A DNA stretch of 64,000 nucleotides from Scatophagus argus (taxonomy: Eukaryota; Chordata; Actinopteri; Scatophagidae). The stretch's first letter is position 1; each line of letters begins with the position of its first letter. This document shows positions 34,186 through 61,834 of the stretch, in pieces. The stretch is from the NCBI RefSeq assembly GCF_020382885.2, contig NC_058516.1:12743362-12807361 (forward strand), in the 5' to 3' direction. Made by a program: the position numbers and the translations under genes. The notes under the pieces were generated by a model that saw only the letters and a program-made list of their open reading frames with translations, made no database searches and was not told the DNA's origin.

Positions 34186-34983
34186 GATGTGACTTGTTTA
34201 TGAAACTTGAGGTGTGCAGACAGATACATAGGCATTTATTTAATACACTAATCAAGATGTAGTGCTGATATGAAAAAATAAATAACTATGATGTCTGTGT
34301 GTGTCTGTACGTATTATTATTTACCACCAATCTGTAAAATTGCGTCCTTAAATTGTAATGGATTAACTGCATTAATGTGTAAATAATCACAATTAATCAC
34401 AGAGTAAAAGGTGGAACTTTTTTCTCTACACAGAATATTATTTTTCTATAATTGCATTCAAGCTTAAAATTTTTAAATTTGATAGAAAAATGATATTTTT
34501 GCATAATTTCACCCGATTACCATTAACACTGGAAAAGTGTTAATGGTATTTTTTGTTCAAAAATGCATATATATATATATATATATATACCAAGGGTTGT
34601 ACAAGGGTTAAATATTCTTAATGGGTACTGAATCCATGACTTCCTTCCTTCATACATTGTTAATCTTCCATTTTGTGTACTGTTTTAGCTTCAGCAACAT
34701 TGCCACCAATATGTACAGGTAAATACAATGCTACTGACTGTGACTGTTGTGCTTCTCCATGGTTTACAGAGAATGTCCTTGACATATGGATGAAGCACAT
34801 CAGGGGCTGTTAAGATAACTCATGTTATGGTTTGGTACTACACTGAAAAAATGAACTTGCACTGACATTTTTAAAGTAAATTTTACTGCTGAAATATACA
34901 ACTCACTTGCCAGTATCATATAAAATTTACTTATTATGCAACTTTACATTTGTGAAGATATTATTGTGTGTTTGAGGGTTTTT
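34186..34983. other. No gene; A/T-rich with a hairpin and a TA microsatellite
   Basis: A perfect 12-bp inverted repeat, TACCATTAACAC with its complement and a 7-base loop, occupies 34518-34548. TA repeats lie at 34567-34589. I see no coding or RNA gene signature. Confidence 0.6.
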
Positions 34984-39608: not shown

Positions 39609-39669
39609 GCATCCTTGAGAGGGAGAAGAGCAGGGAGGCACTTGAGCATGTGTATGGGTTTATTGCCTG
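39609..39669 (+). pseudogene. Recombinase-like gene, exon 1, 5' piece
   Basis: It follows the acceptor TTTACAG and starts with two bases of a split codon. It encodes 'ILEREKSREALEHVYGFIA' and the first two bases of the next Cys codon. The exon is cut at 39669 by the Gypsy element, and CCTG (39666-39669) is the target duplication. The coding sequence resumes at 47834 after the second CCTG. Confidence 0.65.
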
Positions 39670-41016
39670 TGTGGCCAGGTGGGTTGTTTCCTCCCCACCG
39701 CTGTATGGCGCTGTCCCACGGTTCCAGTGTGCTGATTGTGGGGCGGCCCCGCAGCTATTTAAGCCGGCAGGTGGCTGCGCTTTCTCTCTCTTCTTCCTCC
39801 TTGTGCGGCGGTGGCCTGCAGCAGTAGCTGTGGTGAACGTGGGTGCCGTGGTGCTCCGGTATCCAGGTATGTGTTTTGTCTGTTCTGTCTGTGCACCAAG
39901 GTACGTTGCAGTCATAGCGGCTGTGATTTGTTTTGCAGCGTGCGTTGTGGCGGCGTGTATGCGGTGGGGCTGTCGTGTCCTCTTGCCTGGGTCCGCCTGC
40001 GGTGTTGGCACGGTAGGTTGTTGCAATATTGTGCTAGCTAGATCTCTCTGTGCTGACGCTGTTTTCTTTTCTTGATCTGCAGCGGTGGTTGTGACGGGGG
40101 TGGCTCACCCACCGTTAGCGTGGCCTCCTTTCCCTCCCCTTTTTATCGGTGCACCGGGTAGGTGCTGCTGTTCTGGTGGCGCTGCTGTTCTGGTGGCGCT
40201 GCTGTTCCGGTTGGGCTGCTGTTCCGGTTGGGCCGCTGTTTTGGACGCGTCGTCGCTCGGGACGCGAAGTCGTTCCGGACACGGAGCTTGTGCTTCCGAG
40301 GGACTGTTCAAAGACTGAATTGAATGCGTTGATGGCGGTTGGTGTTTTATTCTGGGTTTTGTTTCTTTGGATTATTACTTTGATCTATTGTGTAAATTTA
40401 GGTTTAATTTTTGTATATTCATATTTCTGTGTATTGTTTTTGGGTTAAAATTAGTTAGTTTAGTTAGTAGTTACTGAGTTTTTCCTTTTCCCTTTTTTTT
40501 ATTTTTCTTTCTTGTTTTGTTTGTTGGAGTGTGTGAGTGTCTGTATTTTAAGTTGCCGTGTTGTTGGGTCCCTGTCATTAATTTCTTTCTCTTTGTGTTT
40601 GCTGTACAGGAGCTGTGGCCTGGTGGTGGCGGTGGTCCCCATTTCCTGGTGCTGGGTTTTGTCTTCCCATCCTTATTTTATTAGATTGCAGTGTCACGGT
40701 GTGTAGGTTGCTCCCTTTTCTTTTCTTTCCACCTCCAGTACACCACAGCCCTGTTCACTCTTGGGGTTGATTTTGCAGGGCCCCAACATATCTTGCTTGT
40801 ACTAGGCAACACATAGTGCTCATGACCAAATTTTATTGTGTGCTTGTTTTTTTTCTTTTGTGGTTTAATAATAAAAAAAGTTGTTCTTTCTACCTGTCCC
40901 TTGCCCTGTGTGTGACTCGGACCTGTGTGCATTTCCTGGGGTTGAGGCACCTCTCCTCCAGGTGGCGTTGTCAGCAACTGTCATTTATTTAGACTTACCT
41001 CCTGAACTCTGCCACA
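39670..41016 (+). repeat. 5' LTR of the Gypsy element, 1347 bp
   Basis: It starts TGTGGC and ends GCCACA. It contains a short internal tandem motif around 40165-40240 (GCTGTTCTGGTGGCGCT-like) with one more copy than the 3' LTR, which accounts for the 17-bp size difference. AATAAA-type signal 'AATAATAAAAAAAG' lies near 40868-40881. The long ORFs inside are duplicated exactly in the 3' LTR and are not genes. Confidence 0.95.
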
Positions 41017-41019
41017 TTC

Positions 41020-41037
41020 TGGCGTTGTCGGCAGGAT
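41020..41037 (+). other. Primer-binding site, complementary to tRNA-Ser
   Basis: TGGCGTTGTCGGCAGGAT lies three bases after the LTR. It matches the complement of the 3' end of vertebrate tRNA-Ser (AGA/TGA type, including CCA) at 17 of 18 positions as I recall that tRNA, with the mismatch at the seventh base. Confidence 0.7.
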
Positions 41038-41230
41038 CACGCATTTAAAAGGGCAAGGGCGGGTTGTTTTTCTCATTGTTTGTTCGTGTTGTCTGTTTTT
41101 TTTTGTGTGTGTGTTACGGGTTTATATATTTTTGTATAATTTTGCTTAACAGAACCAGAACAGCAGCATCTACTCAGGTTGTATTACCTGTTTGCCACAG
41201 CTACCTGTTGGTGGCCAGCCTGTGGCTGTC

Positions 41231-42310
41231 ATGGAGGAGGAGGTGCAGCAGCTCAGAGAGCTGGTGATGCAGCTGAAGGCGGATAATGAGCGGTTGCTCC
41301 GTGAACGGGGTGCCTCCCAGGCGGGTCCAGGAGAGGTGAGTGCAGCTTCCTCTGCTCCAGCTGGCCAAGCGACACGGCCGGCAGTCGCTGAGCGGTTGAT
41401 TTTGATCCCTAGAGATCGCAGGTGTCCCATGTTTAATGGTAGGACAGGCATGGGTGTCGATGAGTGGATGGAGGAGGTACAGACATGCATGCGTGCTCGA
41501 CATCTATCTGCTACTGATCAGGCTTTGTTCCTTTTTGATCACTTGGAAGGTGAGGCTAAGGAAGAGATTAAGTTTCGATCTAGTGTCGAGCGAGGGGACC
41601 CAGATCGGGTTTTTGCCATCCTAAGGGAACTTTATGGTTGTGTTCAGCCTTATGTTACCCTACAGCAAGCCTTTTTTTCTAGGAAGCAGCAGGAGGGGGA
41701 GACATTGCATGAGTTTTCCCTTGCTCTCCTGGCCTTGATGGAGCAGGTTAAGCAGTGTGCACCTGATGGCGTGCCTAATGCCGAAGTTCTCCTTCGTGAC
41801 CAGTTTACTGAGCATGTTCTTGACGGGGCTCTTCGTCGGGAACTGAAGCAGGTGATCCGCCGCCAGCCCACGGCTACTCTGTTGGAGGTACGTAGTGAGG
41901 CTATTAGGTGGGAAAGAGAGGGTCTCCCTGGGGGTGCTAGAGGACGCAGTTATTCACTTCCATCTGCTTATGGTCTTCAGTGTGGTGTCCAAGGTAGTTC
42001 TTACCCAGCTCCTCGTGTTACACCCCAGCAGCCAGAGTTAGGTGAGTTGAGGGATCTTCTGAAGCGTCAGCAGGAACAGTTGGATCAGCTCACCCAGACT
42101 GTTGTTTCACTTCAGGCTGCCCGATCACAATCTAATGTCCGGCCCCCTCGGAGTGGCCCTTTGATTTGTCGAAGGTGCCACCAGCCAGGTCATTTTGCTT
42201 GTGAGTGCAATGGCGAGCGGGTCCCTTCTCGGGCCCGGGCAAATTCTGTTGGTGACGCAACTCCCCACGCTGCTAGATCCGTCCATTCTTCTCACCAGTC
42301 GGAAAACTGA
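41231..42310 (+). CDS. Gypsy gag, 359 aa
   Basis: This is the structural protein of the retrotransposon particle. I choose the ATG at 41231, the first in frame after the primer-binding site, which begins 'MEEEVQQLRELVMQLK', a coiled coil. The middle matches the capsid-like domain of Gypsy gag ('FNGRTGMGVDEWMEEV', 'LFDHLEGEAKEEI', 'LLRDQFTEHVLDGALRREL'). A second coiled coil spans about residues 275-305. A single zinc knuckle, 'CRRCHQPGHFACEC' (C-x2-C-x4-H-x4-C), lies near the C-terminus. It overlaps pol by about 31 bases in the -1 frame and is intact. Confidence 0.92.
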   Translation: MEEEVQQLRELVMQLKADNERLLRERGASQAGPGEVSAASSAPAGQATRPAVAERLILIPRDRRCPMFNGRTGMGVDEWMEEVQTCMRARHLSATDQALFLFDHLEGEAKEEIKFRSSVERGDPDRVFAILRELYGCVQPYVTLQQAFFSRKQQEGETLHEFSLALLALMEQVKQCAPDGVPNAEVLLRDQFTEHVLDGALRRELKQVIRRQPTATLLEVRSEAIRWEREGLPGGARGRSYSLPSAYGLQCGVQGSSYPAPRVTPQQPELGELRDLLKRQQEQLDQLTQTVVSLQAARSQSNVRPPRSGPLICRRCHQPGHFACECNGERVPSRARANSVGDATPHAARSVHSSHQSEN

Positions 42311-45300
42311 AGCCCACTGAACTGCCGAGCCACAGCTCAGGTGGGGAGTCTTTTGGCTCACAAGATGGTGTGATTGCTAGTTTAATGTCATCTTGTCCAA
42401 ACATTAATGTATCGATTGGTGGCATTATTGTACCATGTTTGGTGGACACTGGGTCCATGGTGTCTACCCTCACGGAGAGTTTCTTTTTAGAGCATTTCGC
42501 ACCTTGGGGCCCGGATCGCCTTCGGTCTTGCCACTGGCTACAGCTTCGAGCAGCAAATGGCCTCTCTATCCCATATATAGGGTATCTGGAGCTGGAAGTT
42601 ACCTTGTGTGGTAAAGTGATACCTGGTTGTGGGGTTCTGGTGGTTAAGGATCCCCCTGGCGCTTTGTCTTCTGCTCCTGGTATCTTGGGGATGAATGTGA
42701 TTCGGAAATGTTATCAAGAGCTCTTTGGAGTACATGGCGCTTCCCTTTTTGAGTCTTCTCCTGTGTTGCAGGCACCTGGGCCAGTGGTGGAAGCATTGCA
42801 GAAGTGCCATCAGGCTGTTGCTCAAGGTCTTAGGGATCCGAGTGGCACTGTGCGAGTTCGGGGAAAGCGTGTGGTGCGCATACCAGGTGGGGCAATGAAG
42901 TTGGTCCCTGGCACCTGCCCAGAGCTGCGCCCTGGCAAGACTGCATTGTTTGAGCCTTTAGAGTCTGGTTTGCCTGCTGGGTTGCTGGCGTCACCATGTC
43001 TGGTCCAGGTCAAACGGGGTGTGACACATATTCCTGTGGTTAATGTCGGTACTGCTGAAGCCCTTCTTTACCCAAGAACAAGTCTTGGTGCCTTACGTGA
43101 TGCACAGGTGGTCAGTCTTCCTGTTGGTGTCACTGAAATCAGGTCGGTTGAGGCCGCTGTCATCCCAGATCGGGTAGAGGTTTTGGACCTGTCTGCACTA
43201 GGGGAATCTGAACAGATGGAGGTGAGGTCTTTGTTGAGGGAGTATAGTTCCATCTTTTCAGCTCATGATGGGGATTTGGGCTGTACAGATCTTCTCTGTC
43301 ATGACATCCCTTTACTGGATGATATCCCTGTGCGGCAGCGATACCGGCGCATTCCTCCATCGGAGTATGAGGCAGTAAAGGCTCATATCAATCAGCTTTT
43401 GGAGTCTCAGGTCATTAGGGAGAGTAGTAGCCCCTATGCTTCCCCTATTGTCCTTGTCCGGAAGAAGGATGGTAGCCTCCGTTTGTGTGTCGATTATCGT
43501 CTACTGAATAGTAAGACGAGGAAAGATGCTTTCCCTTTACCCCGTATTGAGGAGAGCCTGGATGCGTTGTCAGGAGCTCGCTGGTTTTCAACCATAGACC
43601 TGGCCAGTGGGTACAACCAGGTTCCGGTTTTGGAGCAGGACAGACCGAAAACAGCTTTTTGCACACCGTTTGGTCTCTTTGAGTTCAACAGGATGCCCTT
43701 TGGGTTGTGTAATGCACCTAGCACGTTCCAACGATTGATGCAGAGAATGTTTGGGGATCAGCAGGGGCAATCGCTTCTGCTTTATCTGGATGACATTATT
43801 GTCTTTTCCACCTCTGTCTCCCAGCATTTGCAGCGGTTGGAACTGGTTTTCGGCCGGCTCCAAAAAGAAGGGTTGAAGGCCAAGTTGGAGAAGTGTGCGT
43901 TCTTCCAGCGAGAGGTTACTTATCTGGGACATGTTATTTCTTCTGAGGGAGTCTCCACAGATCCGGCAAAAGTAGAGGCAGTGGCTAAATGGCAGCGTCC
44001 TACCAGTGTGTCTGAGCTGCGCTCATTTTTGGGCTTTGCCAGTTACTATCAGCGCTTTGTGGAGGGCTTTGCTAAATTAGCAGGCCCTCTGCATAAGTTA
44101 GTAGCAGATCTGTCTGGTGCTAAGTCCAGGAAGGGGCCTGGATCAGCCTTTGGTGCTGCATGGACTCCACAGTGTGAGGACAGCTTTGAAGCTCTAAAGG
44201 CTAGGCTGGTTGCAGCTCCTGTGTTGGCATATGCTGATTTTTCACAACCCTTTATCTTGGAGACTGATGCCAGCCATAGTGGGCTTGGAGCTGTGCTGTC
44301 GCAGGAGGTGAATGGTGTGGTTCGGCCTGTTGCTTACGCCAGTCGAGGGCTCCGGCCTACTGAACGTAACATGACAAATTATAGCTCGATGAAGCTGGAG
44401 TTTCTTGCACTGAAGTGGGCCATGACTGAGAAGTTCAGGGAATACCTGTTGGGGCACAAGTGTGTGGTATTCACTGACAACAACCCATTGAGCTACCTTC
44501 AGTCTGCTAAACTGGGGGCCACTGAGCATCGTTGGGCTGCTCAGTTGGCAGCTTTTGATTTTGATATTAAGTATCGCTCTGGGCGCAGTAATAAAAATGC
44601 TGACGCTCTTTCACGTCAGTATATGTCTGGGTCAGGTGTGGCTCACCAGTTTTCTGGCACCTTGGTTCCCGGTGTCCTTCAGCAGGTCTCATGTCCTGAT
44701 GCCGGGACACCTGTGACCCAATCTCTTGTTGCTGCCTTTCCCAGCCATTCAGTACCAGATGTTCGGGCCTTACAGGAGGCTGACTCTGTCATCAGGGAGG
44801 TTTTGGAGTTTTGGAGGAGGCAGGTTCGACCAACTTTTGCTGAACGGCATAAGTTGTCTCAGCCTGTTCTGGCCTTGCTGCGCCAGTGGGATCGACTGGT
44901 GGAGAAGGAAGGGGTGCTATATCGCCGGATTTTCCATCCAGATGGTGGAGAAGAGTCCCTCCAGCTCATTTTGCCAGCCGTTCTTAAACCGGAGGTCTTG
45001 AAGCAGTTGCATCAAGATCATGGCCATCAGGGCATCGACCGGACCACTGACTTGATACGGCAGCGTTGCTATTGGCCAGGTATGTTTTCTGACATTAAGC
45101 AGTGGGTCCAGGAGTGCGAACGGTGTCAGGTGGCTAAGGACTCTGGGGCTGTGTCGCATAGCTTTATGGGCCACTTGCTTGCATCCAGGCCTAATGAGAT
45201 TTTGGCCCTGGACTTTACCTTGTTGGAGCCCTCCAGGGGTGGGTATGAGAATGTCCTAGTGATGACGGATGTGTTTAGTAAATACACCGTGGCAGTACCC

Positions 45301-46446
45301 ACACGGGATCAGCGGGCCTCTACAGTGGCCCAGGTTCTTGTGGTTGAGTGGTTTTACAAGTTTGGTGTTCCGAGTCGGCTTCATTCTGATCAGGGTCGTA
45401 GTTTTGAGAGTTCATTGATCCATCAGTTGTGCTGCCTGTATAAGGTAGAAAGATCTCGCACAACTCCCTATCACCCGGCAGGGAATGGTCAATGTGAGCG
45501 GTTCAACAGAACCTTGCATAACCTCTTGCGTACCCTCCCAGTTTCACAGAAGCAGGACTGGGCCTCCTGTCTGCCACAAGTGCTCTTTTGTTATAATACC
45601 ACCCCTCATCAGGGCACGGGTGAATCTCCGTTTTTCCTCATGTTTGGAAGGGAGTCCCAGTTGCCAGTGGACTTCCTTTTGGGACGGGTTCCGAACCCTG
45701 TACCAGGGGAAGTACAGGATTGGGTGGCCGAGCATCAGGCCAGATTGAGAGTTGCTTTTGAGAATGCCCATGGGCGATTGCTGGCAGCCGCTGGTAGACG
45801 AAAGGGACGGCATGATCAGAATGTCCGAGACTTGCCACTATCAGTTGGGCAGCTAGTGTACCTGCGGGATTACAGCAGTAGAGGGCGCCATAAAATTAAA
45901 GATGTTTGGAGTTCAGTGGTCTATAAAGTGGTGAGAGCTCCCTCAGGGGAAGGTGTAGTTTACACCATTGCCCCTGTTAGTGACTTACAGAAGGTTCGGA
46001 TTGTGCACCGGGATGCAGTGAAGGCAGTGGTGCAGCCTGGACCTCTGCCTTGTGCCCCAGTGGCGCAGGCTCCATCTGCATTGGCTGCCACTGACAGTGA
46101 GCCGTCTGAAGAAGTGTGGTTGTTGGCCCCTGAGATCTCTTTACCAGTGACCCCAGCAGGACTTGATACTGTCGGGCCTATGAGTGTGCTGGATGCATCT
46201 CCACCAGAACCGGCTCCAGGGACGTCCTCTTCCCAGGGGAGCCTGTTGGCGGTGGGTTTTCCATCATCAGAGGACGGTCCCTGTTGTAGTCAGCAGACCT
46301 TGCGGCGTACTTCTCGCCCTACAGCAGGCCAGCACGGCAATGTACACCATCTTCCCCGGTCTGTTGGTCATCAGAACCATGCCCCCCCAGAGTCCTCTCA
46401 ATCTGTGTCTAGCGTGCAGGTGGCCCTGTTTCGGCCATGGCATTAA
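42277..46446 (+). CDS. Gypsy pol: protease, RT, RNase H, integrase
   Basis: The frame opens at 42277, inside gag in the -1 frame, and is unbroken to 46446. The first in-frame ATG is 42385, so expression probably depends on -1 frameshifting. Domains in order are: aspartic protease 'CLVDTGSMVSTL'; reverse transcriptase ('LRLCVDYRLLNSKTRKDAFP', 'FSTIDLASGYNQVPV', 'LLYLDDIIVF' with YLDD near 43783); RNase H ('LETDASHSGLGAVLSQE', 'FTDNNPLSYL', 'NADALSR'); integrase HHCC finger ('HGHQGIDRTT'...'CERC'); and DDE core ('LALDFTLLEP', 'LHSDQGRSFES', 'NGQCERFNRTL'). A proline-rich tail of about 130 residues follows the integrase C-terminal domain. This is the standard Gypsy order, unlike the Gmr1-like element at 15544-18340. 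No inactivating change is seen. Confidence 0.95.
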   Translation: MRPFFSPVGKLKPTELPSHSSGGESFGSQDGVIASLMSSCPNINVSIGGIIVPCLVDTGSMVSTLTESFFLEHFAPWGPDRLRSCHWLQLRAANGLSIPYIGYLELEVTLCGKVIPGCGVLVVKDPPGALSSAPGILGMNVIRKCYQELFGVHGASLFESSPVLQAPGPVVEALQKCHQAVAQGLRDPSGTVRVRGKRVVRIPGGAMKLVPGTCPELRPGKTALFEPLESGLPAGLLASPCLVQVKRGVTHIPVVNVGTAEALLYPRTSLGALRDAQVVSLPVGVTEIRSVEAAVIPDRVEVLDLSALGESEQMEVRSLLREYSSIFSAHDGDLGCTDLLCHDIPLLDDIPVRQRYRRIPPSEYEAVKAHINQLLESQVIRESSSPYASPIVLVRKKDGSLRLCVDYRLLNSKTRKDAFPLPRIEESLDALSGARWFSTIDLASGYNQVPVLEQDRPKTAFCTPFGLFEFNRMPFGLCNAPSTFQRLMQRMFGDQQGQSLLLYLDDIIVFSTSVSQHLQRLELVFGRLQKEGLKAKLEKCAFFQREVTYLGHVISSEGVSTDPAKVEAVAKWQRPTSVSELRSFLGFASYYQRFVEGFAKLAGPLHKLVADLSGAKSRKGPGSAFGAAWTPQCEDSFEALKARLVAAPVLAYADFSQPFILETDASHSGLGAVLSQEVNGVVRPVAYASRGLRPTERNMTNYSSMKLEFLALKWAMTEKFREYLLGHKCVVFTDNNPLSYLQSAKLGATEHRWAAQLAAFDFDIKYRSGRSNKNADALSRQYMSGSGVAHQFSGTLVPGVLQQVSCPDAGTPVTQSLVAAFPSHSVPDVRALQEADSVIREVLEFWRRQVRPTFAERHKLSQPVLALLRQWDRLVEKEGVLYRRIFHPDGGEESLQLILPAVLKPEVLKQLHQDHGHQGIDRTTDLIRQRCYWPGMFSDIKQWVQECERCQVAKDSGAVSHSFMGHLLASRPNEILALDFTLLEPSRGGYENVLVMTDVFSKYTVAVPTRDQRASTVAQVLVVEWFYKFGVPSRLHSDQGRSFESSLIHQLCCLYKVERSRTTPYHPAGNGQCERFNRTLHNLLRTLPVSQKQDWASCLPQVLFCYNTTPHQGTGESPFFLMFGRESQLPVDFLLGRVPNPVPGEVQDWVAEHQARLRVAFENAHGRLLAAAGRRKGRHDQNVRDLPLSVGQLVYLRDYSSRGRHKIKDVWSSVVYKVVRAPSGEGVVYTIAPVSDLQKVRIVHRDAVKAVVQPGPLPCAPVAQAPSALAATDSEPSEEVWLLAPEISLPVTPAGLDTVGPMSVLDASPPEPAPGTSSSQGSLLAVGFPSSEDGPCCSQQTLRRTSRPTAGQHGNVHHLPRSVGHQNHAPPESSQSVSSVQVALFRPWH

Positions 46447-46499
46447 TGCCTGTTTCTTTTTGTCATCGTCGGGGCGACGATTCAGCAGCCTGGAGTAGA

Positions 46500-47829
46500 T
46501 GTGGCCAGGTGGGTCGTTTCCTCCCCACCGCTGTATGGCGCTGTCCCACGGTTCCAGTGTGCTGATTGTGGGGCGGCCCCGCAGCTATTTAAGCCGGCAG
46601 GTGGCTGCGCTTTCTCTCTCTTCTTCCTCCTTGTGCGGCGGTGGCCTGCAGCAGTAGCTGTGGTGAACGTGGGTGCCGTGGTGCTCCGGTATCCAGGTAT
46701 GTGTTTTGTCTGTTCTGTCTGTGCACCAAGGTACGTTGCAGTCATAGCGGCTGTGATTTGTTTTGCAGCGTGCGTTGTGGCGGCGTGTATGCGGTGGGGC
46801 TGTCGTGTCCTCTTGCCTGGGTCCGCCTGCGGTGTTGGCACGGTAGGTTGTTGCAATATTGTGCTAGCTAGATCTCTCTGTGCTGACGCTGTTTTCTTTT
46901 CTTGATCTGCAGCGGTGGTTGTGACGGGGGTGGCTCACCCACCGTTAGCGTGGCCTCCTTTCCCTCCCCTTTTTATCGGTGCACCGGGTAGGTGCTGCTG
47001 TTCTGGTGGCGCTGCTGTTCCGGTTGCGCTGCTGTTCCGGTTGGGCCGCTGTTTTGGACGCGTCGTCGCTCGGGACGCGAAGTCGTTCCGGACACGGAGC
47101 TTGTGCTTCCGAGGGACTGTTCAAAGACTGAATTGAATGCGTTGATGGCGGTTGGTGTTTTATTCTGGGTTTTGTTTCTTTGGATTATTACTTTGATCTA
47201 TTGTGTAAATTTAGGTTTAATTTTTGTATATTCATATTTCTGTGTATTGTTTTTGGGTTAAAATTAGTTAGTTTAGTTAGTAGTTACTGAGTTTTTCCTT
47301 TTCCCTTTTTTTTATTTTTCTTTCTTGTTTTGTTTGTTGGAGTGTGTGAGTGTCTGTATTTTAAGTTGCCGTGTTGTTGGGTCCCTGTCATTAATTTCTT
47401 TCTCTTTGTGTTTGCTGTACAGGAGCTGTGGCCTGGTGGTGGCGGTGGTCCCCATTTCCTGGTGCTGGGTTTTGTCTTCACATCCTTATTTTATTAGATT
47501 GCAGTGTCACGGTGTGTAGGTTGCTCCCTTTTCTTTTCTTTCCACCTCCAGTACACCACAGCCCTGTTCACTCTTGGGGTTGATTTTGCAGGGCCCCAAC
47601 ATATCTTGCTTGTACTAGGCAACACATAGTGCTCATGACCAAATTTTATTGTGTGCTTGTTTTTTTTCTTTTGTGGTTTAATAATAAAAAAAGTTGTTCT
47701 TTCTACCTGTCCCTTGCCCTGTGTGTGACTCGGACCTGTGTGCATTTCCTGGGGTTGAGGCACCTCTCCTCCAGGTGGCGTTGTCAGCAACTGTCATTTA
47801 TTTAGACTTACCTCCTGAACTCTGCCACA
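46500..47829 (+). repeat. 3' LTR of the Gypsy element, 1330 bp
   Basis: It is nearly identical to 39670-41016. It begins TGTGGCCAGG at 46500 and ends GCCACA at 47829. The preceding 53 bp hold no strong polypurine tract: the bases just before it are GCCTGGAGTAGA. Confidence 0.95.
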
Positions 47830-47833
47830 CCTG

Positions 47834-47927
47834 CATTACTGGCCACAGGAAAGGGGTCATCACCAACCTTAAGGTCAAGGAGTTTTCCCAGGCAGAGGAG
47901 GATGAGTTGGGAAGGAGAATAATCCGG
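47834..47927 (+). pseudogene. Recombinase-like gene, exon 1, 3' piece (box I arginine)
   Basis: It completes the exon begun at 39609. It encodes 'ITGHRKGVITNLKVKEF' and 'SQAEEDELGRRIIR', and ends in CGG before a consensus donor GTAAGAG at 47928. The TGHRxG..xNL pattern is box I of tyrosine recombinases, with Arg as the first catalytic residue. Joining to 50370 is phase 0. Confidence 0.68.
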
Positions 47928-48156
47928 GTAAGAGAATGCATCATGGTACAGCTTGTAGAGTATTTCCCTTTTTATGTTCTGAATATAAACTACTGAATTT
48001 CAATAAAGTATCTTTCTATCTATCTGCTAAATTTCTTCCTCAATATAGACCCTAACTCCCTTTACATTACACGCATGGGTAACCATGACTACCTACAGCA
48101 TGCTTCCAAATATAGCATTTTCACTACATGTCTGTGTTTCCTTGCTTTATTCACAG
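47928..48156 (+). other. Intron of the recombinase-like gene, left of the L2 insertion
   Basis: It runs from the donor GTAAGAG to a strong pyrimidine tract and acceptor, TTTCCTTGCTTTATTCACAG, ending at 48156. A short 'TTTCAATAAAGTATC' with TATC repeats at about 47997-48030 is a tiny LINE tail. Exon 2 should follow at once, but the L2 element lies between. Confidence 0.6.
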
Positions 48157-48311
48157 AATCAGAATCAGAATCAGAATCAGAATCAGCTTTATTTGCCAAG
48201 TATGTGTGACCATACAAGGAATTTGACTCCGGATTTTTCTCTGTCCTGTGCACCATACAAAATACAAAAAAGCAATAATAATAATAAAAAGAAGAATAAA
48301 ATATTTACAAG

Positions 48312-48313
<2 letters not shown>

Positions 48314-48375
<62 letters not shown>
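48314..48375. repeat. TA dinucleotide microsatellite
   Basis: About 30 TA/AT repeats lie within the 3' untranslated region of the L2 element. The related tail at 18557-18716 lacks this expansion. Confidence 0.9.
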
Positions 48376-48381
<6 letters not shown>

Positions 48382-48441
48382 GTGCAAACAGTGGAATGAG
48401 GTAGTGCAAACAGTGTGATGGTTCACACAATGGCAGGTGGT

Positions 48442-50365
48442 TTATGGGGAGATCAGGGAGACAGCCTGGGGGAAGAAACTGTTTTTGTGTCTGGTGGTCT
48501 TGGCATACAGAGCTCTGTAACGCCTACCAGAGGGAAGCAGATCAAACAGTTTGTGTGCAGGGTGTGAGGGGTCTGCAGTGATGCTTCCTGCCCGTTTTTT
48601 GACCCTGGACTGGTATAAGTCCTGGATGGAGGGCAGGTCGGCCCCGATGATTTTTTCTGCAGACCTGATTGTCCGTTGCAGTCTGTTTCTGTCCTGTTTG
48701 GTGGCCGATCCAAACCAGACAGTGATGGAAGTGCAGAGAACAGACTGGACGATGGAGGTGTAGAAGATGGTCAGCAGCTCCTGAGGCAGGTTGAACTTTT
48801 TCAGCTGTCGCAGAAAATACAACCTCTGCTGGGCCTTTTTTCTGATTAGGTCTACGTGGGACTTCCACTTGAGATCCCGGGCGATTGTAGTTCCCAGGAA
48901 CTTAAAGGAGTCCACAGTAGACACTGTGTTGTTGAGAATGGTAAGAGGAGGTACGGTGGGTGGGTTCTTCCTAAAGTCCACTGTCATCTCCACAGTCTTG
49001 AGCGGGTTAAGCTCCAGGTTGTTCTGACCACACCAGAGGACCAGCTGGTCTACTTCACGTCTGTAGGCAGCCTCATCACCATCCTTGATGAGGCCAACTA
49101 CAGTTGTGTCGTCCGCAAACTTAAGTAGTTTTACGGACGGGTCCCCTGAGGAGCAGTCGTTAGTGTATAGGGAGAAGAGCAGCGGGGAAAGAACACACCC
49201 CTGGGGGGCGCCAGTACTGATGGTTCTGGTGCTGGAGGTGATGCTCCCCAGCCTCACCTGCTGCCTCCTGTCAGTGAGGAAGTTGTAGATCCACTGAGAG
49301 GTGGAGGTCGGCACTGTGAGCTGTGAGAGCTTCTGGCGGAGGATTTCTGGGATGATGGTGTTGAATGCAGAGCTGAAGTCCACAAACAGGATCCTGGCAT
49401 ATGTCCCTGGGGTGTCGAGGTGATGGAGGATGAAGTGCAGTCCCATGTTGACTGCGTCATCCACCGACCGGTTTGCCCGGTAGGCAAACTGCAGGGGGTC
49501 AAGCCGGGGGCCTGTGATGAACTTCAGGTGGTTCAGCACCAGCCTCTCAAAGGATTTCATGACCACAGACGTCAGGGCGACGGGTCTGTAGTCATTCAAC
49601 CCCGTGATGGTGGGTTTTTTGGGGACTGGGATGATGGTGGAACGTTTGAAGCAGGAGGGTACTTCACACAGCTCCAGAGATCTGTTGAAGATCTGGGTGA
49701 AGATGGGTGCCAGCTGGTCAGCGCAGATTCTCAGGCAGGAGGGGGACACTCTGTCAGGTCCTGGAGCCTTCCTGGTCTTCTGCCTCTGGAAGAGCCGATG
49801 CACCTCCTCCACATTGACCTTCAGTGCTGGTAGGAGGTCTGAGTTGAGGGGGGAGGGTGAGGTGTCAGGTATGGCACAGAGGTTGAGTGTTGTGGATGGG
49901 GTGGGAGAAGGGTGTGAAAAGCGGCAGTAGAAGCTGTTCAGCTCCTCTGCCAGTCCTTTGTTACCCACAGGGTGGGGGGATGGGCTCCTGTAGTTGGTGA
50001 TGTCTCTCAGGCCTTTCCACACTGAAGTAGGGTCGTTGGCTGAAAACCTGTTTTTCAGCTTCTCAGAGTAGCACCTCTTTGCAGCTCTGATCTCCCTTGT
50101 CAGTGTGTTCCTGGCCTGCTTGTACAGGGCCCTGTCCCCACTTCTGTGGGCCTCCTCCTTAGCCTGGCGCAGCTTCCTGAGTTTATTGGTGAACCATGGT
50201 TTGTTGTTGTTGTATGTGCAGAAGGTTTTGGTCTGCACACATGAGTCCTCACAAAAACTGATGTAGGATGTCACAGTGTCGGTCAGTTCATCCAGGTCTG
50301 TGGCTGCAGCCTCGAAGATGAGATGGACCATGCAGTGGTCAGAGAGTCCCAAAGCAGCACGGGAA
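48442..50365 (-). pseudogene. L2-type LINE ORF2, truncated but otherwise open
   Basis: From the endonuclease end 'LGLSDHCMVHLIF' the frame stays open for about 640 codons. It passes the linker ('NNNKPWFTNKLRKLRQAK'), RT motifs 'KAPGPDRVSPSCLR', 'LNDYRPVALTSVVMKSFERL', motif A 'FVDFSSAFNTI', motif B 'STGAPQGCVLSPLLFSLYT', motif C 'KFADDTTVVG' and thumb 'FKFLGTTIARDLKW'. It ends at the C-terminal block 'DPSHPAHKLFDLLPSGRR', with the stop at 48442. Motif A reads FNT rather than the usual FDT. It cannot move itself without the endonuclease. The apparent extension beyond 50365 is host exon read backwards. Confidence 0.85.
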
Positions 50366-50369
50366 ACAG

Positions 50370-50501
50370 GTGGAAGATCACAAAACCAAAGAGAGCTTTG
50401 GTCATGCCCAGATTCTGATTTCTTTTCAGGACTGCTGGGAGTCCTTTGGTCTTCCAGGGAGACCAACATTCTCCCCGATTCGAAGCAGCATAAGCACATG
50501 T
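50370..50501 (+). pseudogene. Recombinase-like gene, exon 2 (lysine and box II arginine)
   Basis: It is 132 bp, 44 codons, phase 0 at both ends. It starts GTGGAAGATCAC after ACAG and ends ACATGT before donor GTAAGA. It encodes 'VEDHKTKESFGHAQ' and 'DCWESFGLPGRPTFSPIRSS'. HKT is the hairpin lysine motif. 'PTFSPIRSS' aligns with box II, where the usual His of H-x-x-R is Ser. Compared with the family as I recall it, about 60 residues between AQ and FQDCW are absent, so the core is shortened. Its native acceptor pyrimidines now lie at 48135-48156, beyond the L2. Confidence 0.68.
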
Positions 50502-50595
50502 GTAAGATTTGTTTCATTTTCATCAAACTAATTAAAAACATGCACAATTCTGTTTTTGCACAACACTTAATGTTTTTGTCATCATTTTTTTGTAG

Positions 50596-51360
50596 GTTGG
50601 ACGGAGTGTGGAGGAGAGTAAAAGGGGAAACATCCACAGGCTGATGTTCCACTCAACGGCCACAGCAGAGAAATTTTATGAGGCTGACCTGGGCTTCAGT
50701 GAAGCTTTCCAAATGCGCAAAGAAACAGCCAGTGCACTTGCAAACACCTTCAAAAACAGATGCAGGACCTACAAGAACACAGAGAAAACAGACCATGCTG
50801 ATAAAGGCAACACTGTTTCCCAGGGTAAAGAGAATGAAGAGGGAGCAGAGAAGGGCAAAGAAAAGGGCAAGAGAAAGAAGATGACAAAAAGGCGTGGACA
50901 AGTCAGTGACAGTGAGCACACAGAGAGCAGTGACAGGAAGTGCTCACAGGAAGATGAGGAAGCCCACAAGGCCAAGAAGCATGCTGTGAGGAGTGCCAGA
51001 GTGCAGAATGAGAGCCAAAAGAAAACAAGAAAGGATGTAACACAGGTCAAAAGAAAGAAGATGTCAAAGAGTTGCTTACAAGTCAGTGACACTGACCACA
51101 CAGGGAGCAGTGACGGCAAAAGCTCACAGGGAGAAGGTGATGGAGATGAGGAGCATGTGCAGCAGGAAAGTGAAATACAACTCAGTCAGGTTACAAAAGA
51201 GGACTGTGGAACAGGAAAGAGTGATAAAAGGGTGACACAAGACAAAGACAATGACACAGAGAGACTAGATCAGATGACTGAAGTTATCTCGTCTTCTGAG
51301 GAGACAGAAGACGCGAAAAAAGACAACAGGAGAGCAAGTGCAACCGACAGTGAAATATGA
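50596..51360 (+). pseudogene. Recombinase-like gene, exon 3 (His-x8-Tyr) and charged tail
   Basis: It follows the acceptor TTTTTTTGTAG and continues in phase 0. It opens with 'VGRSVEESKRGNIH' and then 'RLMFHSTATAEKFYEADL': His and Tyr are nine residues apart, as in lambda integrase and XerD. 'FQMRKETASALANTF' closes the domain. The remaining ~190 residues are Lys/Glu/Ser-rich, with two similar blocks 'QVSDSEHTESSD' and 'QVSDTDHTGSSD' and basic 'KGKRKKMTKRR' signals that look nuclear. The frame ends at TGA 51358-51360, while a second frame continues from within it. Confidence 0.65.
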
Positions 51361-52333
51361 CAACACCAAAAAACGTCCCAGATTGTCCTGCAACCCAGTG
51401 AGGTCTTTAAGGACGGTGAAAAATTCGAACAAAAGACCCATGGCCAAGTATGGTTATCTCCAAAGGAAGGGAAAAGGATCTCCTCCTAAGAAATCAAGCC
51501 CCAAGCAGTTACTCTTACGAAACTGCCAGGTAGTGCTGCAGAGGGTGAATACTAAGACTTTGGAGGAACTGAAGAGACAGAGAAAGGGAAGGGCAAAAAA
51601 AGGTATCTCTCACCAGAAACCTCAGCATTTTATCAGATGGCCCAAAAAACACAAGAAAAACAAGACAGGAACAACAGAAGACATGAGAGGAAACCAAAAA
51701 GATGATTCACATCAGGCTGAAGTGAGAGCAGGAAGCAGAGAAGAACATCTTGCAGATAATGCTGTACCGGAAAAGGACAGAAAAGTAGATCCAGAAGACA
51801 GAGATGCACAGGCAGGAGACCAAGAAGGAGACCCAAACAACAGCAAATTACAGAACAGAGATCCAGAAGACAGTGCAGCACAAGGAGACAAAGATAATGA
51901 GCTAGAAAATGGAACGAAAATGGCACTAGGCCGAGACAGAGATCGGGGATACAGTTCAGAACAGACAGAAGACCAAGACGGTGATCCAAAAGAGAGTGCA
52001 ATACCATTAGGACACAAAGTAGAAAATTTGGAGGACAGCGCAAAACAGACAGGAGACCAAGAAGGAAATCCAGAAAATGGTGCAGTACAGATTGGAGAAA
52101 GAGAAAGTACTGAAATTTCAGAAAAAACAGGAAATCAAGAAGGACATCAAAACAAAAATGCAGCACAGACAGGAGACCAAGAAGGAGAACCAGAAGGTGA
52201 TGCAGAGCAGTCAGGAGACAGCGAAAGAGATCCAGAAAACTGTGTAGAACATATAAGAGACCAAGAAGGAGACTCGGAGGATGGTACAGTACAGACAGGA
52301 GACAGAAAAGGAGAGCCAGAAGAGGATGGGTGA
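51338..52333 (+). pseudogene. Frame-shifted C-terminal tail with acidic ~18-aa repeats
   Basis: This is a +1-shifted frame of 331 codons overlapping the end of exon 3's frame. A one-base change in the A-run at about 51315-51320 would connect the two. A basic stretch ('NTKKRPRLS', 'RKGKGSPPKKSSPK', 'RWPKKHKKNK') leads into degenerate repeats of about 17-20 residues of the type 'QTGDQEGDPED', seen about ten times to the stop at 52333. That the frame is open for 1 kb argues it was coding in a recent ancestor. Alternatively it is a separate repeat-born ORF. Confidence 0.5.
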
Positions 52334-52828
52334 ATTCTGTTATAGCACTGAAGAGGGCAGTAAGCAGAGGAGTGCATCCATCTTAAATCTTGAATTCTCA
52401 AGAGGAAGAGAGAAGGTGAGGTAGGTGATGCAGGTGCATTGGATTACGCAAATTGAGGAACAAAGCCTGCTTCAATTTGGAGAGAGCATGGAGATGCTGT
52501 TGGTATGAATTCAAAGATTATTTGTTTGGCACATGTACGTATCTTTAATAATTTAATTTAATCATGAGTGATTGTTTGATTTGATCTTAAAAGAAAAAAA
52601 ATCTTATTTATATGTATTAATTAGTAATTTTGATTTAAATGAACTGTGCAGAGTTGGTGGATTTGATTTAAAATATTCTGTCCTGTTATTTATGTTTAAG
52701 GTTATCAACCTGATTTGACCCTCCAAGCTGAATCTAAATAAAGCAAAAGGAAGAAATAGAGTTGTCCACTGTGTCCTTTTTCAAGTTTGGGCAGAAATTG
52801 AAGCAAAATATCTAAATAACTTGACAAC
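52334..52828 (+). terminator. 3' untranslated region and poly(A) signal of the recombinase-like gene
   Basis: Non-repetitive A/T-rich sequence ends with AATAAA at 52737-52742. A GTTGTCCACTGTGTCC stretch downstream (about 52761-52776) fits the GT-rich element. After about 52790 LINE sequence begins. Confidence 0.5.
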
Positions 52829-56887: not shown

Positions 56888-57006
56888 CTACTCTGGTTTC
56901 TCTTCATAGCGCACAAGTCTTTCGCCTTTTACTAAAGACTTCCGTGGAGAGGAGCACCAACGAGTTGAAGCAATTTTTGACAGGCTTTGCTGTTCGGCTG
57001 AGCCTC
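56888..57006 (+). ncRNA. U5 spliceosomal snRNA, unit 1
   Basis: The 5' stem begins TACTCTGGTTTCTCTTCA. The invariant loop I, CGCCTTTTACTAAAG, is flanked by pairing arms AGTCTTT/AAGACTT, and the strand CCGTGGAGAGGA closes the main stem. The Sm site is AATTTTTGA, and the final hairpin pairs AGGCT with AGCCT. At about 119 nt it matches the usual 116-120. The U5 RNA holds exon ends during splicing. All hallmarks are intact. The first base is C where human U5 has A, so the exact start is approximate. Confidence 0.94.
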
Positions 57007-57121
57007 CAGCTTCTGTGAACGTCATTTGAGATGCTGCTAACGAGACTTAGGGCGGAGCCGTGGAGCGCTTGGCTAGAGGCTACCCAGCGACGGCCATTCA
57101 TATGCGCAGTTCAAATGGCTG

Positions 57122-57136
57122 CACCGCGACAAGTCA
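57122..57136 (+). promoter_or_regulatory. PSE-like element of U2 gene, unit 1
   Basis: CACCGCGACAAGTCA sits 46-60 bases upstream of U2, at the same distance as the U5 PSE-like site. It shares CACCGCGAC with the human U2 PSE as I recall it. Confidence 0.65.
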
Positions 57137-57181
57137 GCGCTCTCCCGGGAGGTGGCCTCCAGCAGAAAGCGGACGGGGCTC

Positions 57182-57368
57182 ATCGCTTCTCGGCCTTTTG
57201 GCTAAGATCAAGTGTAGTATCTGTTCTTATCAGTTTAATATCTGATACGTCCTCTATAAGGGGACAGCATATTAAATGGATTTTTAGCACTGGGAGCCGA
57301 AAAAGGGGCTTGCTCCGTTCGCTCCACGCATTGACCCGGTGTTGCAGCGCTGCCGGGAACGGTGCACC
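57182..57368 (+). ncRNA. U2 spliceosomal snRNA, unit 1
   Basis: It starts ATCGCTTCTCGGCCTTTTGG, with the GTAGTA branch-point pairing region at about 57214-57219. The Sm-type ATTTTTA follows, and the end is GGAACGGTGCACC. The 187 nt match the family's 187-190. The first ~70 bases equal human U2. Stem IIa is GTCCTC/GGGGAC. Stem IV is CCCGG/CCGGG, where human has CCUGG/CCAGG, so pairing is kept by compensating changes. It pairs with the branch site in the U2 snRNP and appears functional. Confidence 0.97.
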
Positions 57369-57381
57369 TTTCTCCTGCCTT

Positions 57382-57396
57382 GTCCAAAAGCAAAGA
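57382..57396 (+). terminator. snRNA 3' box after U2, unit 1
   Basis: GTCCAAAAGCAAAGA lies 13 bases after the U2 end and fits the vertebrate 3' box pattern GTTTNAAARNNAGA with two mismatches. The identical copy follows U2 in unit 2 at 59879-59893. Confidence 0.6.
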
Positions 57397-57529
57397 CTGA
57401 TTGCAAAATGACAGGCTTCCGCAGAACGTTGAGAGGTTTTTCGGCTTGCGGAGCCGCGCTTTGGAGCCAGTAGGTTTGCACAGGTTTCCGCAAGGGCCGA
57501 TTTTAATGTAGAAATGGGGAACTGATTCT

Positions 57530-58740
57530 CTAATTTCAATTTCAATTTATTTATCAAAATTGTCTGTAGATGCTTTACAGAGACCCGGAGCCTGAACCCC
57601 CGAGCAAGCAGACAGTGGCAAGGAAAAACTCCCTTTTTAAAGGAAGAAACCTTGAGCAGGACCAGGCTTGCAAGAGAGAACTATCCTTCTGATAGTCGGA
57701 CAGAGAGGATGAAAGAGAGAGTGTGCGCCTGTCGAACGCAGATTGGCAACTGGTTCCACAGCAGGGGTGCCTGATTAGATAAAGGCTCGTCCTCCCATTC
57801 CACTTTTAGGAATTCTGGGAACTGCAAGTAAGCCTGCACTCTGTGATCTGAGTGTTCTATTGGGAATATATGGCACTATTAGATCCTGCAGGTATGATGG
57901 GGCTAGTCCATTTAGGGCCTTATGTTTCCCAGCCTGGGACCAATAAAGTATATCTATCTATCTATATGTAAGTAGGAGAATTTTAAAGTCTATTCTGAAT
58001 TTTACCGGAAGCCAGTGAAGAGAAGCTAAGATGGGGGAGATATGATCCCTTTTACTGATTCCTGTCAAAACTCTAGCTGCTGCATTCTGGATCAGCTGCA
58101 GGCTATTAATAGAGTCATTTGGACATCCTGATAATAGTGAGTTGCAGTAGTCCAGCCTAGAAGTAACAAAAGCATGGACAAGTTTTTCAGCATCACTCCG
58201 AGAGAGGACGCTCCTTGTCTTAGCAATATTACGGAGGTGAAAGAAGGCGGTCTTGGAGATCTGCGTAATGTGATGGATAAATGACACGTCCTGATCGAAG
58301 AGAACGCCGAGGTTCCTCGCAGTCGTACTGGGGGCCAAAGTAATGCCGTCCAGAGAGAGAATATTATCAGCTGTTCTAGTTGTAAGATGTTTGGGGCCTA
58401 GAACAATGACCTCAGTTTTGTCTGAGTTTAATAATAAGAAGAAATTGGAGGTCACCCAGTCCTTTATGTCCTTAAGACATGCCTGGAGCCTGGCTAACGG
58501 CTCGGTTTCTTCAGGCTTTGAGGATAAGTGCAGCTGAGTGTCATCAGCGTAACAACGAAAGTTTATGCCATGTTTCTGAATAATATTTCCCAGAGAGAGC
58601 ATGTATAAGGTGAACAGGATCGGCCCAAGCACTGAACCCTGTGGAACACCGAGGTTAACCCTTGAATGTGAAGAGGAAACATCATTAACGTGAACAAAGT
58701 GAAATCTATCTGATAAATATGATTTAAACCAGCCCAGTGC
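57530..58740 (-). pseudogene. CR1-like LINE 3' fragment in array unit 2
   Basis: The 3' tail (TTTCAATTTCAATTTATTT on the plus strand) starts at about 57530. The 3' untranslated region follows, then the C-terminus of ORF2, and the frame at 57958-58740 is open through motif B and YADD. Unlike unit 1, this copy shows the whole truncated LINE, from its tail to the abrupt 5' end at 'ALGWFKSYL'. It is homogenised with the other units. Confidence 0.85.
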
Positions 58741-59323
58741 GAGAGGTTTCTTGGTTCCTGGCAGTGGAGGCTTACGGCTCAAGCTCTCCCAGTGAGCGGA
58801 TGACACCGCGCTGCTACTGGACAGCCACACGCGCTTGCTAAGATCGTTGGAGGTTTCCCAGGATCTTTGCCGAGTGGCGGAGGCAAAGCTCCGTTTCACC
58901 AAATCCTCAGTTAAGTTTTGTGGGCGGCGGAAAGAGAGGGTGGGTGTGCCAGGGGTTTTTTCAATCTGCGTAGGTCCTCTGAAGATTCTGGGAGGTCAGC
59001 TTTGAGCGTGCGAAGAGTGCGACAGCCAACTGGACTGCGCGTTTAGCGCTAGCTCATGATAAACCGGGGCTGTGGAAGGCCAGGCGCCTGACTTTTATAG
59101 GAAAGGTTCCGGTTCTGAAGGGAGACATTCTGCCGTCACCTTTATATCTTGCATACACGTACCCACTGCCAGTCGGTATGAGAGAGCCTCTTCTGCGGCC
59201 GGTGTTTGCTTTCACGTGGGGCGGGAGATAGGAGTTTGTGGCGCTAGCCGGGATAGAAACAGGCGGAATCATAATCACGTCGCCAAATATGTGCGTCCGC
59301 TGCACGGCACGCCACAAGTGCCT

Positions 59324-59338
59324 TACCATAACCGTAGT
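59324..59338 (+). promoter_or_regulatory. PSE-like element of U5 gene, unit 2
   Basis: TACCATAACCGTAGT, identical to the unit 1 site and at the same distance from U5. Confidence 0.65.
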
Positions 59339-59384
59339 CGCTGGGACCACAGCGGTCTTCCCCGCCACTCAGGAGAGGGCCGCA

Positions 59385-59503
59385 CTACTCTGGTTTCTCT
59401 TCATAGCGCACAAGTCTTTCGCCTTTTACTAAAGACTTCCGTGGAGAGGAGCACCAACGAGTTGAAGCAATTTTTGACAGGCTTTGCTGTTCGGCTGAGC
59501 CTC
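59385..59503 (+). ncRNA. U5 spliceosomal snRNA, unit 2
   Basis: It is identical to unit 1 over the gene, with loop I CGCCTTTTACTAAAG and Sm site AATTTTTGA intact. Confidence 0.94.
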
Positions 59504-59618
59504 CAGCTTCTGTGAACGTCATTTGAGATGCTGCTAACGAGACTTAGGGCGGAGCCGTGGAGCGCTTGGCTAGAGGCTACCCAGCGACGGCCATTCATAT
59601 GCGCAGTTCAAATGGCTG

Positions 59619-59633
59619 CACCGCGACAAGTCA
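59619..59633 (+). promoter_or_regulatory. PSE-like element of U2 gene, unit 2
   Basis: CACCGCGACAAGTCA, identical to unit 1. Confidence 0.65.
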
Positions 59634-59678
59634 GCGCTCTCCCGGGAGGTGGCCTCCAGCAGAAAGCGGACGGGGCTC

Positions 59679-59865
59679 ATCGCTTCTCGGCCTTTTGGCT
59701 AAGATCAAGTGTAGTATCTGTTCTTATCAGTTTAATATCTGATACGTCCTCTATAAGGGGACAGCATATTAAATGGATTTTTAGCACTGGGAGCCGAAAA
59801 AGGGGCTTGCTCCGTTCGCTCCACGCATTGACCCGGTGTTGCAGCGCTGCCGGGAACGGTGCACC
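59679..59865 (+). ncRNA. U2 spliceosomal snRNA, unit 2
   Basis: The 187 nt are identical to the unit 1 gene, including the branch-site region, Sm site and stem IV. The 3' box follows at 59879-59893. It is the second complete U2 gene of the array. Confidence 0.97.
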
Positions 59866-60026
59866 TTTCTCCTGCCTTGTCCAAAAGCAAAGACTGATTG
59901 CAAAATGACAGGCTTCCGCAGAACGTTGAGAGGTTTTTCGGCTTGCGGAGCCGCGCTTTGGAGCCAGTAGGTTTGCACAGGTTTCCGCAAGGGCCGATTT
60001 TAATGTAGAAATGGGGAACTGATTCT

Positions 60027-61236
60027 CTAATTTCAATTTCAATTTATTTATCAAAATTGTCTGTAGATGCTTTACAGAGACCCAGAGCCTGAACCCCCGA
60101 GCAAGCAGACAGTGGCAAGGAAAAACTCCCTTTTTAAAGGAAGAAACCTTGAGCAGGACCAGGCTTGCAAGAGAGAACTATCCTTCTGATAGTCGGACAG
60201 AGAGGATGAAAGAGAGAGTGTGCGCCTGTCCAACGCAGATTGGCAACTGGTTCCACAGCAGGGGTGCCTGATAGATAAAGGCTCGTCCTCCCATTCCACT
60301 TTTAGGAATTCTGGGAACTGCAAGTAAGCCTGCACTCTGTGATCTGAGTGTTCTATTGGGAATATATGGCACTATTAGATCCTGCAGGTATGATGGGGCT
60401 AGTCCATTTAGGGCCTTATGTTTCCCAGCCTGGGACCAATAAAGTATATCTATCTATCTATATGTAAGTAGGAGAATTTTAAAGTCTATTCTGAATTTTA
60501 CCGGAAGCCAGTGAAGAGAAGCTAAGATGGGGGAGATATGATCCCTTTTACTGATTCCTGTCAAAACTCTAGCTGCTGCATTCTGGATCAGCTGCAGGCT
60601 ATTAATAGAGTCATTTGGACATCCTGATAATAGTGAGTTGCAGTAGTCCAGCCTAGAAGTAACAAAAGCATGGACAAGTTTTTCAGCATCACTCCGAGAG
60701 AGGACGCTCCTTGTCTTAGCAATGTTACGGAGGTGAAAGAAGGCGGTCTTGGAGATCTGCGTAATGTGATGGATAAATGACACGTCCTGATCGAAGAGAA
60801 CGCCGAGGTTCCTCGCAGTCGTACTGGGGGCCAAAGTAATGCCCTCCAGAGAGAGAATATTATCAGCTGTTCTAGTTGTAAGATGTTTGGGGCCTAGAAC
60901 AATGACCTCAGTTTTGTCTGAGTTTAATAATAAGAAGAAATTGGAGGTCACCCAGTCCTTTATGTCCTTAAGACATGCCTGGAGCCTGGCTAACGGCTCG
61001 GTTTCTTCAGGCTTTGAGGATAAGTGCAGCTGAGTGTCATCAGCGTAACAACGAAAGTTTATGCCATGTTTCTGAATAATATTTCCCAGAGAGAGCATGT
61101 ATAAGGTGAACAGGATCGGCCCAAGCACTGAACCCTGTGGAACACCGAGGTTAACCCTTGAATGTGAAGAGGAAACATCATTAACGTGAACAAAGTGAAA
61201 TCTATCTGATAAATATGATTTAAACCAGCCCAGTGC
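60027..61236 (-). pseudogene. CR1-like LINE 3' fragment in array unit 3
   Basis: This is the same truncated LINE as in unit 2, with tail, 3' untranslated region and open partial ORF2 (60454-61236). It has a one-base difference in the 3' region (CCTGATAGAT against CCTGATTAGAT). Confidence 0.85.
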
Positions 61237-61819: not shown

Positions 61820-61834
61820 TACCATAACCGTAGT
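61820..61834 (+). promoter_or_regulatory. PSE-like element of U5 gene, unit 3
   Basis: TACCATAACCGTAGT, as in units 1 and 2. Confidence 0.65.

Follow-up and report, generated by a model that had tools for sequence, protein, structure and literature searches.

The stretch of DNA considered here, hereafter the window, comprises the 64,000 nucleotides C24:12743362-12807361 of the genome of the fish Scatophagus argus (570.7 Mb in 48 contigs), and carries on its plus strand the pieces of a gene whose product resembles a tyrosine recombinase. When the four exon pieces listed in Table 1 are joined, they translate as one frame without a stop, in which the motifs TGHRKG, DHKT, SPIR and FHSTATAEKFY follow one another and supply all five catalytic residues (Arg, Lys, Arg, His and Tyr). 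The original prediction, made from the letters of the window, had named these pieces, this residue set in this order, and their scattering among transposons, and all of this stands. It had also proposed a working hidden gene assembled by splicing, and here the evidence points elsewhere. We consider the locus to be a dead member of a multi-copy fish gene family with a tyrosine-recombinase-type catalytic domain, a reading to which we assign a probability of roughly 0.8.

Structure of the locus

Paralogues were sought across the same genome, and copies are called below by the contig on which they lie. With the last exon as query, a close paralogue was found on C21 and a tandem pair on C20. The window between 32276 and 51820 aligns with C21 (reverse strand of L009 plus L010, 6444-11563) in colinear blocks of 91-98% identity. 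C21 contains neither the Ty3/Gypsy-type long terminal repeat (LTR) retrotransposon nor the long interspersed nuclear element (LINE) found in the window, so that both empty sites are visible.

Table 1. Positions, within the window, of the gene pieces, open reading frames (ORFs) and transposons at the recombinase-like locus
Feature	Position	Strand	Evidence
Remnant of a core-binding-region exon, 15 codons, FTENVLDIWMKHIRG	34763-34807	+	C21 exon searched in the window with tblastn: 93% identity, E 5e-6
5' portion of the exon that has catalytic Arg I in its 3' portion; good acceptor upstream; 12-nt in-frame deletion (LLSG) relative to C21	39609-39669	+	
Ty3/Gypsy-type LTR retrotransposon inside the exon	39670-47829	+	LTRs, target-site duplication, pol ORF, C21 empty site
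3' part of the Arg I exon (TGHRKG); no acceptor upstream of 47834; good donor (GTAAGA) following 47927	47834-47927	+	
LINE (reverse transcriptase) at an intron/exon border	48157-50365	-	PF00078, E 6.5e-32; junctions against C21
Exon encoding catalytic Lys (DHKT) and Arg II (SPIR), with an in-frame loss of 120 nt around 50410-50415; good donor	50370-50501	+	
Last exon, with catalytic His and Tyr (FHSTATAEKFY) and charged tail; frameshift near 51313-51320; stop 51358-51360	50596-51360	+	
Second tail ORF, next frame; ~42-nt repeats at 52040-52328; continuous with the first tail part in C21	51278-52333	+	
AATAAA, perhaps the poly(A) signal of the former gene	52737-52742	+	Read directly

The pieces at 39609-39669 and 47834-47927, taken by the original prediction for separate exons, are a single exon split by a recent Gypsy insertion. 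The element is bordered by a CCTG target-site duplication (39666-39669 and 47830-47833), and in the alignment of its LTRs (39670-41016 and 46500-47829) 1327 columns are identical, 3 are mismatched and 17 contain gaps. Its pol ORF (42277-46446) matches reverse transcriptase, RNase H and integrase domains, and aspartyl protease weakly. With LTRs so alike, the insertion may still be polymorphic. No GT follows 39669 and no AG precedes 47834; an intron in this place is ruled out by the LTRs and the target-site duplication.

Further downstream, the intron between 50501 and 50596 has good splice signals, and the joins preceding 50370 and 50596 are both in phase 0, as are the same two joins in the C21, C20 and C5a relatives. 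An AG does precede 50370, but it is the edge of the LINE insertion, and the 18 bases upstream of it contain 5 pyrimidines and no T (counted by eye). ACAG flanks the LINE at 48153-48156 and at 50366-50369. The acceptor's original pyrimidine tract and AG now lie 2.2 kb from the exon, with their last base at 48156, and the bases before 50366 are LINE-derived. The consensus splice sites in phase 0 that had been claimed throughout are thus found at the 50501/50596 intron, with the phase correct before both 50370 and 50596, and are wanting at 39669/47834 and at the 50370 acceptor.

Lesions and selection

Compared with C21, the window copy lacks 12 nt of the Arg exon and 120 nt (40 codons) of the Lys/Arg exon, both in-frame losses; the core, reported earlier as about 60 residues short, is in fact 40 short at this point (44 against 84 codons), plus 4 in the first exon. 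The possibility that LISFQ is the tail of a lost intron was ruled out by the one continuous 84-codon exon of C21. Between window positions 34808 and 34813, about 520 nt of C21 are without counterpart; the remainder of the exon represented at 34763-34807 and the exon that follows it are deleted there, so that hardly anything of the core-binding exons is left. The second zinc-finger exon and the linker exon of C21 likewise have no counterpart in the window (no match at E <1.4; the search did not cover the first zinc-finger exon). None of 2000 Markov-simulated sequences with matching dinucleotide content contained a stop-free run the length of the tail ORFs (254 and 351 codons), the longest simulated run being 207 codons. 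C21 reads in one frame through the point at which the window tail shifts. The tail of C21 is itself shifted twice, by a net loss of 17 nt immediately following FSEAFQ and again further downstream. C21 keeps the five catalytic residues and is frameshifted after the core. The two copies are therefore both damaged, at different places. Because of its lost exons, its deletions, the Gypsy element in an exon, the LINE at an acceptor and the frameshift in the tail, the window copy is a many-lesioned pseudogene.

Comparison of the window with C21 over 134 codons shows 4 synonymous and 10 non-synonymous changes (dN/dS 0.68), where 3 and 11 are expected from site numbers without selection. The ratio is lower between other copies: 0.09 for C21/C20b (dS 3.0), 0.15 for C18a/C18b (dS 1.4), 0.32 for C20a/C20b and 0.45 for C20b/C28, values that are rough where dS exceeds 1. 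The window copy has changed neutrally since the duplication that separated it from C21, and purifying selection has acted on older branches.

The gene family

The original prediction suspected a gene family, and homologous exons are indeed found at many places in the genome, with at least 22 loci in addition to the window. Searches with the C21 core and the C5 core returned 28 and 30 places, respectively, several of which are exons of one copy. Collapsed, they give 23 loci, namely the window, C21, two on C20 and 19 others, a lower bound unless near-identical copies on small contigs are haplotype or assembly duplicates; among these loci, some with E 0.01-0.3 are kept on the strength of conserved motifs, and one place on C4 (E 0.93) was left out. 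Unnamed fish proteins with similar motifs presumably exist as well.

The most complete picture of the gene comes from C5a (L034), where two zinc-finger-like segments, a C-x-x-C coiled-coil-like linker, core-binding exons, three catalytic exons and a tail are all open. AG and GT are present at the exon borders inspected, and the gene model is partial. N-terminal segments like those of C5a lie upstream of C21 and C20, and a homologous core-binding region is present in C21, C20a, C20b, C18a, C25, C37 and C5a. Intron positions and phases are conserved between C21 and C5a despite only ~30% identity. Zinc-finger matches are weak and all below cut-off (PF23320, 4.3e-4 in C5a and 1.5e-4 in C20a; PF00096, 0.003 in C5a). 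The family looks like a multi-exon gene whose product would have zinc-finger-like modules, a core-binding region, a catalytic domain of the tyrosine-recombinase kind and a charged tail made of repeats.

This tail, which the original prediction regarded as a fusion peculiar to the locus, is also carried by C21, C20a and C5a. Its repeat units measure ~14 residues, with two of ~60, in the window; several of ~60 occur in C21 (L009/L010), and units of ~36 (by eye) in C5a (L034). Both the unit and the number of repeats vary from copy to copy, which suggests that the tail evolves through repeat turnover.

The state of the copies varies widely. All five residues and three open catalytic exons are found at 8 of the 23 loci (L021, L023, L024, L025, L026, L027, L030 and L031); L023-L027 form one near-identical group, so the eight represent four branches. 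Among these eight, C5a (L030/L034) is the one whose other exons were also inspected. The catalytic exons are open in C18a, C25 and C28, and in C18b (L024/L035) a core-binding exon is apparently interrupted by a repeat (by eye). Other copies have decayed in different ways: C20a has Cys for the Tyr, C20b has a 1-nt frameshift, and Arg I, Lys, Arg II and Tyr are all missing from C5b. In L057, L058, L059, L060 and L066, the second half of the Lys/Arg exon or the whole exon is missing, and the fetched stretch showed no His/Tyr exon. One identical in-frame stop in the Lys/Arg exon is common to L028, L029, L033, L054 and L055 (on C28, C33, C7, C31 and C40), whose fetched stretches are pairwise 96-100% identical over long parts. 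Because these five share one stop and align so closely, they probably multiplied after the gene had died, though some may be assembly duplicates. On the small contig C26, two near-identical copies of the gene core stand in opposite orientation within 1.8 kb (3960-5691), which is either a palindrome or an assembly artefact.

Placement in the genome

Six clusters of the family lie on large contigs, at 413 kb (C24), 113 kb (C21), 50 and 35 kb (C20), 19 and 7 kb (C5), 12 kb (C7) and 2.3-2.5 Mb (C18) from a contig end. Five of the six are thus less than 414 kb from an end, for which random placement gives a probability of ~3e-7, calculated with a cut-off picked after seeing the data and with 24 chromosomes assumed. 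Small contigs (32-231 kb) carry 13 of the 23 loci. The family therefore clusters near chromosome ends and on small contigs. It probably spreads, at least in part, by segmental duplication; the similarity between C18b and C37, which is broken up by inverted and repeated segments, weighs against a simple form of this process.

Relationship to tyrosine recombinases

An alignment of seven family cores, the window copy included (A1), was compared with known protein families. Four residues are identical in all seven rows, namely Arg in GHR, Lys in HKT, Arg in TF-x-x-[IL]-R-S-S and His in M-[CF]-H; the Tyr is present in six, the exception being the Cys of C20a. The first His of the H-x-x-R motif is absent, with Ser or Asn three residues before Arg II in 7/7 rows, so the Ser noticed earlier in the window copy reflects a family-wide loss. 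This His varies in the tyrosine recombinase superfamily and is replaced in type IB topoisomerases.

Pfam Phage_integrase (PF00589) is the best Pfam match in four of the seven rows (E 2.7e-5, 1.4e-4, 2.9e-3 and 0.015). In the row with E 0.015, only the N-terminal part is chimeric, and the matched segment belongs to the catalytic part. The last residue matched in C28 is its Tyr, at profile position 165 of 172. A SAM-like N-terminal domain (PF13495) is matched weakly, at E 0.04, by the C5a row only. DUF3504 is absent among the four Pfam families that the seven rows match at E up to 10, the library presumably including a DUF3504 model. The pieces of the window alone gave nothing convincing against Pfam, PHROGs or the Protein Data Bank (PDB). 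With the family alignment, no informative match was obtained in NCBIfam or PHROGs, the latter giving one-member matches (1.5e-4 and 1.7e-3) to families of unknown function. Phage records and IMG/VR viral contigs gave no informative match. The Phage_integrase comparison suggested by the original prediction is thus positive for four family cores, below cut-off, and negative for the window copy itself. Taken together, sequence comparison makes membership in the tyrosine recombinase superfamily well supported.

Like PF00589 proteins, the family has R, K, R, H and Y in order, a Tyr nine residues after the His, and a conserved region N-terminal to the catalytic exons; unlike them, it has Asn or Ser for the first His, zinc-finger-like exons, introns and a repetitive tail, and its best score is just below the cut-off. 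Type IB topoisomerases share the R-K-R-H-Y set without the first His; a possible difference is the weak SAM-like N-terminal match of one family row. DIRS and Ngaro retrotransposons encode tyrosine recombinases and occur in fish genomes, whereas the present family is a multi-exon gene; no reverse transcriptase was seen by eye among plus-strand ORFs of at least 70 residues in the 10 kb around C5a, the minus strand not being listed. The Crypton-derived DUF3504 genes (ZMYM2-4, QRICH1, KCTD1, KIAA1958 and WOC) are also recombinase-derived and occur in vertebrates, and ZMYM proteins have zinc fingers. Cryptons, those of medaka included, and DUF3504 genes are described in PMC3212892, where DUF3504 is said to be without most of the catalytic tetrad; in contrast, the catalytic residues are kept in many copies of the window's family. 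Among the papers found in literature searches, no title or abstract opening named this family, subscription papers being outside the scope.

Interpretation

We propose that the ancestral protein would have combined zinc-finger-like modules, a core-binding region, a catalytic domain with R, K, R, H and Tyr (and Asn or Ser for the first His) and a variable, repetitive charged tail. One ancestral locus was probably duplicated into the window copy and the C21 copy, after which the window copy lost its N-terminal exons and 40 core codons, and gained the LINE at its acceptor and, recently, the Gypsy element in its exon. The best-preserved relatives (C5a foremost; C18a, C25 and C28) may bind DNA through their zinc fingers and core-binding region and, by analogy with tyrosine recombinases and type IB topoisomerases, could cleave it by attack of the Tyr, giving a 3'-phosphotyrosine. 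The missing first His does not exclude this chemistry, because type IB topoisomerases are without it.

Several observations weigh against this interpretation. No PF00589 match reaches the curated cut-off of 27.1 bits, and in the Pfam search the window copy, C21 and C20a do not match that family. The family profile found no tyrosine recombinase in the PDB, its sole weak match being a glutathione transferase, and the fold predicted for the last exon alone has a pLDDT of 58 and yields no usable model. The zinc fingers fall short of their own cut-offs, and in the N-terminal piece of C20a LemA competes (E 0.0016). Near-identical copies on small contigs are possibly alternative haplotypes or assembly duplicates. 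As to the death of the window copy, homopolymer frameshifts in the tails are possible assembly errors, though the larger lesions are not of that kind, and both core deletions would fall in frame by chance in only about one case in nine, a possible sign of constraint. Finally, 21 of the 28 pairs behind the rough dN/dS estimates are saturated.

A chance fit of unrelated open stretches to the tyrosine-recombinase pattern would agree with the lack of convincing matches for the pieces of the window by themselves; its probability is negligible, since it is refuted by the paralogues, i.e., by conserved exons at many places, purifying selection and the PF00589 matches. It is also very improbable that the window gene is alive, with its transposons spliced out as introns and its short core a derived form. 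The core is open and the losses of 12 and 120 nt are in frame, as this would require, but the Gypsy borders are target-site duplications with neither donor nor acceptor, the Lys/Arg exon acceptor is severed from its pyrimidine tract, the core-binding exons have been lost, nothing in the window corresponds to the second zinc-finger exon or the linker exon of C21, and the changes since duplication are neutral.

Two further explanations accept the family as real and differ on what it does, and both appear unlikely to us. The family could be a self-moving, Crypton-like transposon with zinc fingers, of which the window holds a decayed insertion; many dispersed copies of different ages, retained catalytic residues and the broken-up similarity of C18b and C37 would fit, and transposons with only a tyrosine recombinase (Cryptons) are known in medaka (PMC3212892). 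Such an element is hard to reconcile with multi-exon genes and conserved introns, and with copies alike over long stretches, five of them with the same stop, as in segmental duplication. There is also no DUF3504 match, and copy comparisons revealed no element ends, no dedicated search for ends having been made. Alternatively, the proteins could be non-enzymatic DNA-binding derivatives that act in gene regulation, like the DUF3504 of ZMYM, QRICH1 and KCTD1. The loss of catalytic residues in C20a and C5b agrees with this, as does the loss of most of the catalytic tetrad from DUF3504 (PMC3212892); against it stand the eight loci in four branches with five residues and open catalytic exons, and the invariance of R, K, R and H in the seven aligned rows. 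In view of the introns, the shared flanks and the post-mortem duplications, we consider a resident gene family derived from a recombinase more probable than an element that moves by itself now or did so in the past.

To our knowledge, resident vertebrate genes with an intact tyrosine-recombinase active site are rare. The window copy itself is only a fossil. The family as a whole has conserved its catalytic residues, carries zinc-finger-like modules and tends to lie near chromosome ends, and its better copies, C5a first and then C18a, C25 and C28, are candidates for a working vertebrate enzyme. A bolder proposal, which we rate as distinctly improbable, is that fish carry catalytically competent, zinc-finger-targeted tyrosine recombinases near chromosome ends that act on chromosome-end DNA, and that duplication and death leave wrecks such as this one.

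Neighbouring features

Beyond the locus, the window contains tandem units of ~2.5 kb with U5 and U2 small nuclear RNA genes (56888-62293), comprising three U5 genes, two complete U2 genes and a third U2 that is shortened and weaker; the opposite strand has fragments of LINE reverse transcriptase. At 62900-64000, an ORF of 366 residues on the minus strand, which runs off the window, is weakly like hAT transposase (PF14372, E 5.8e-4).

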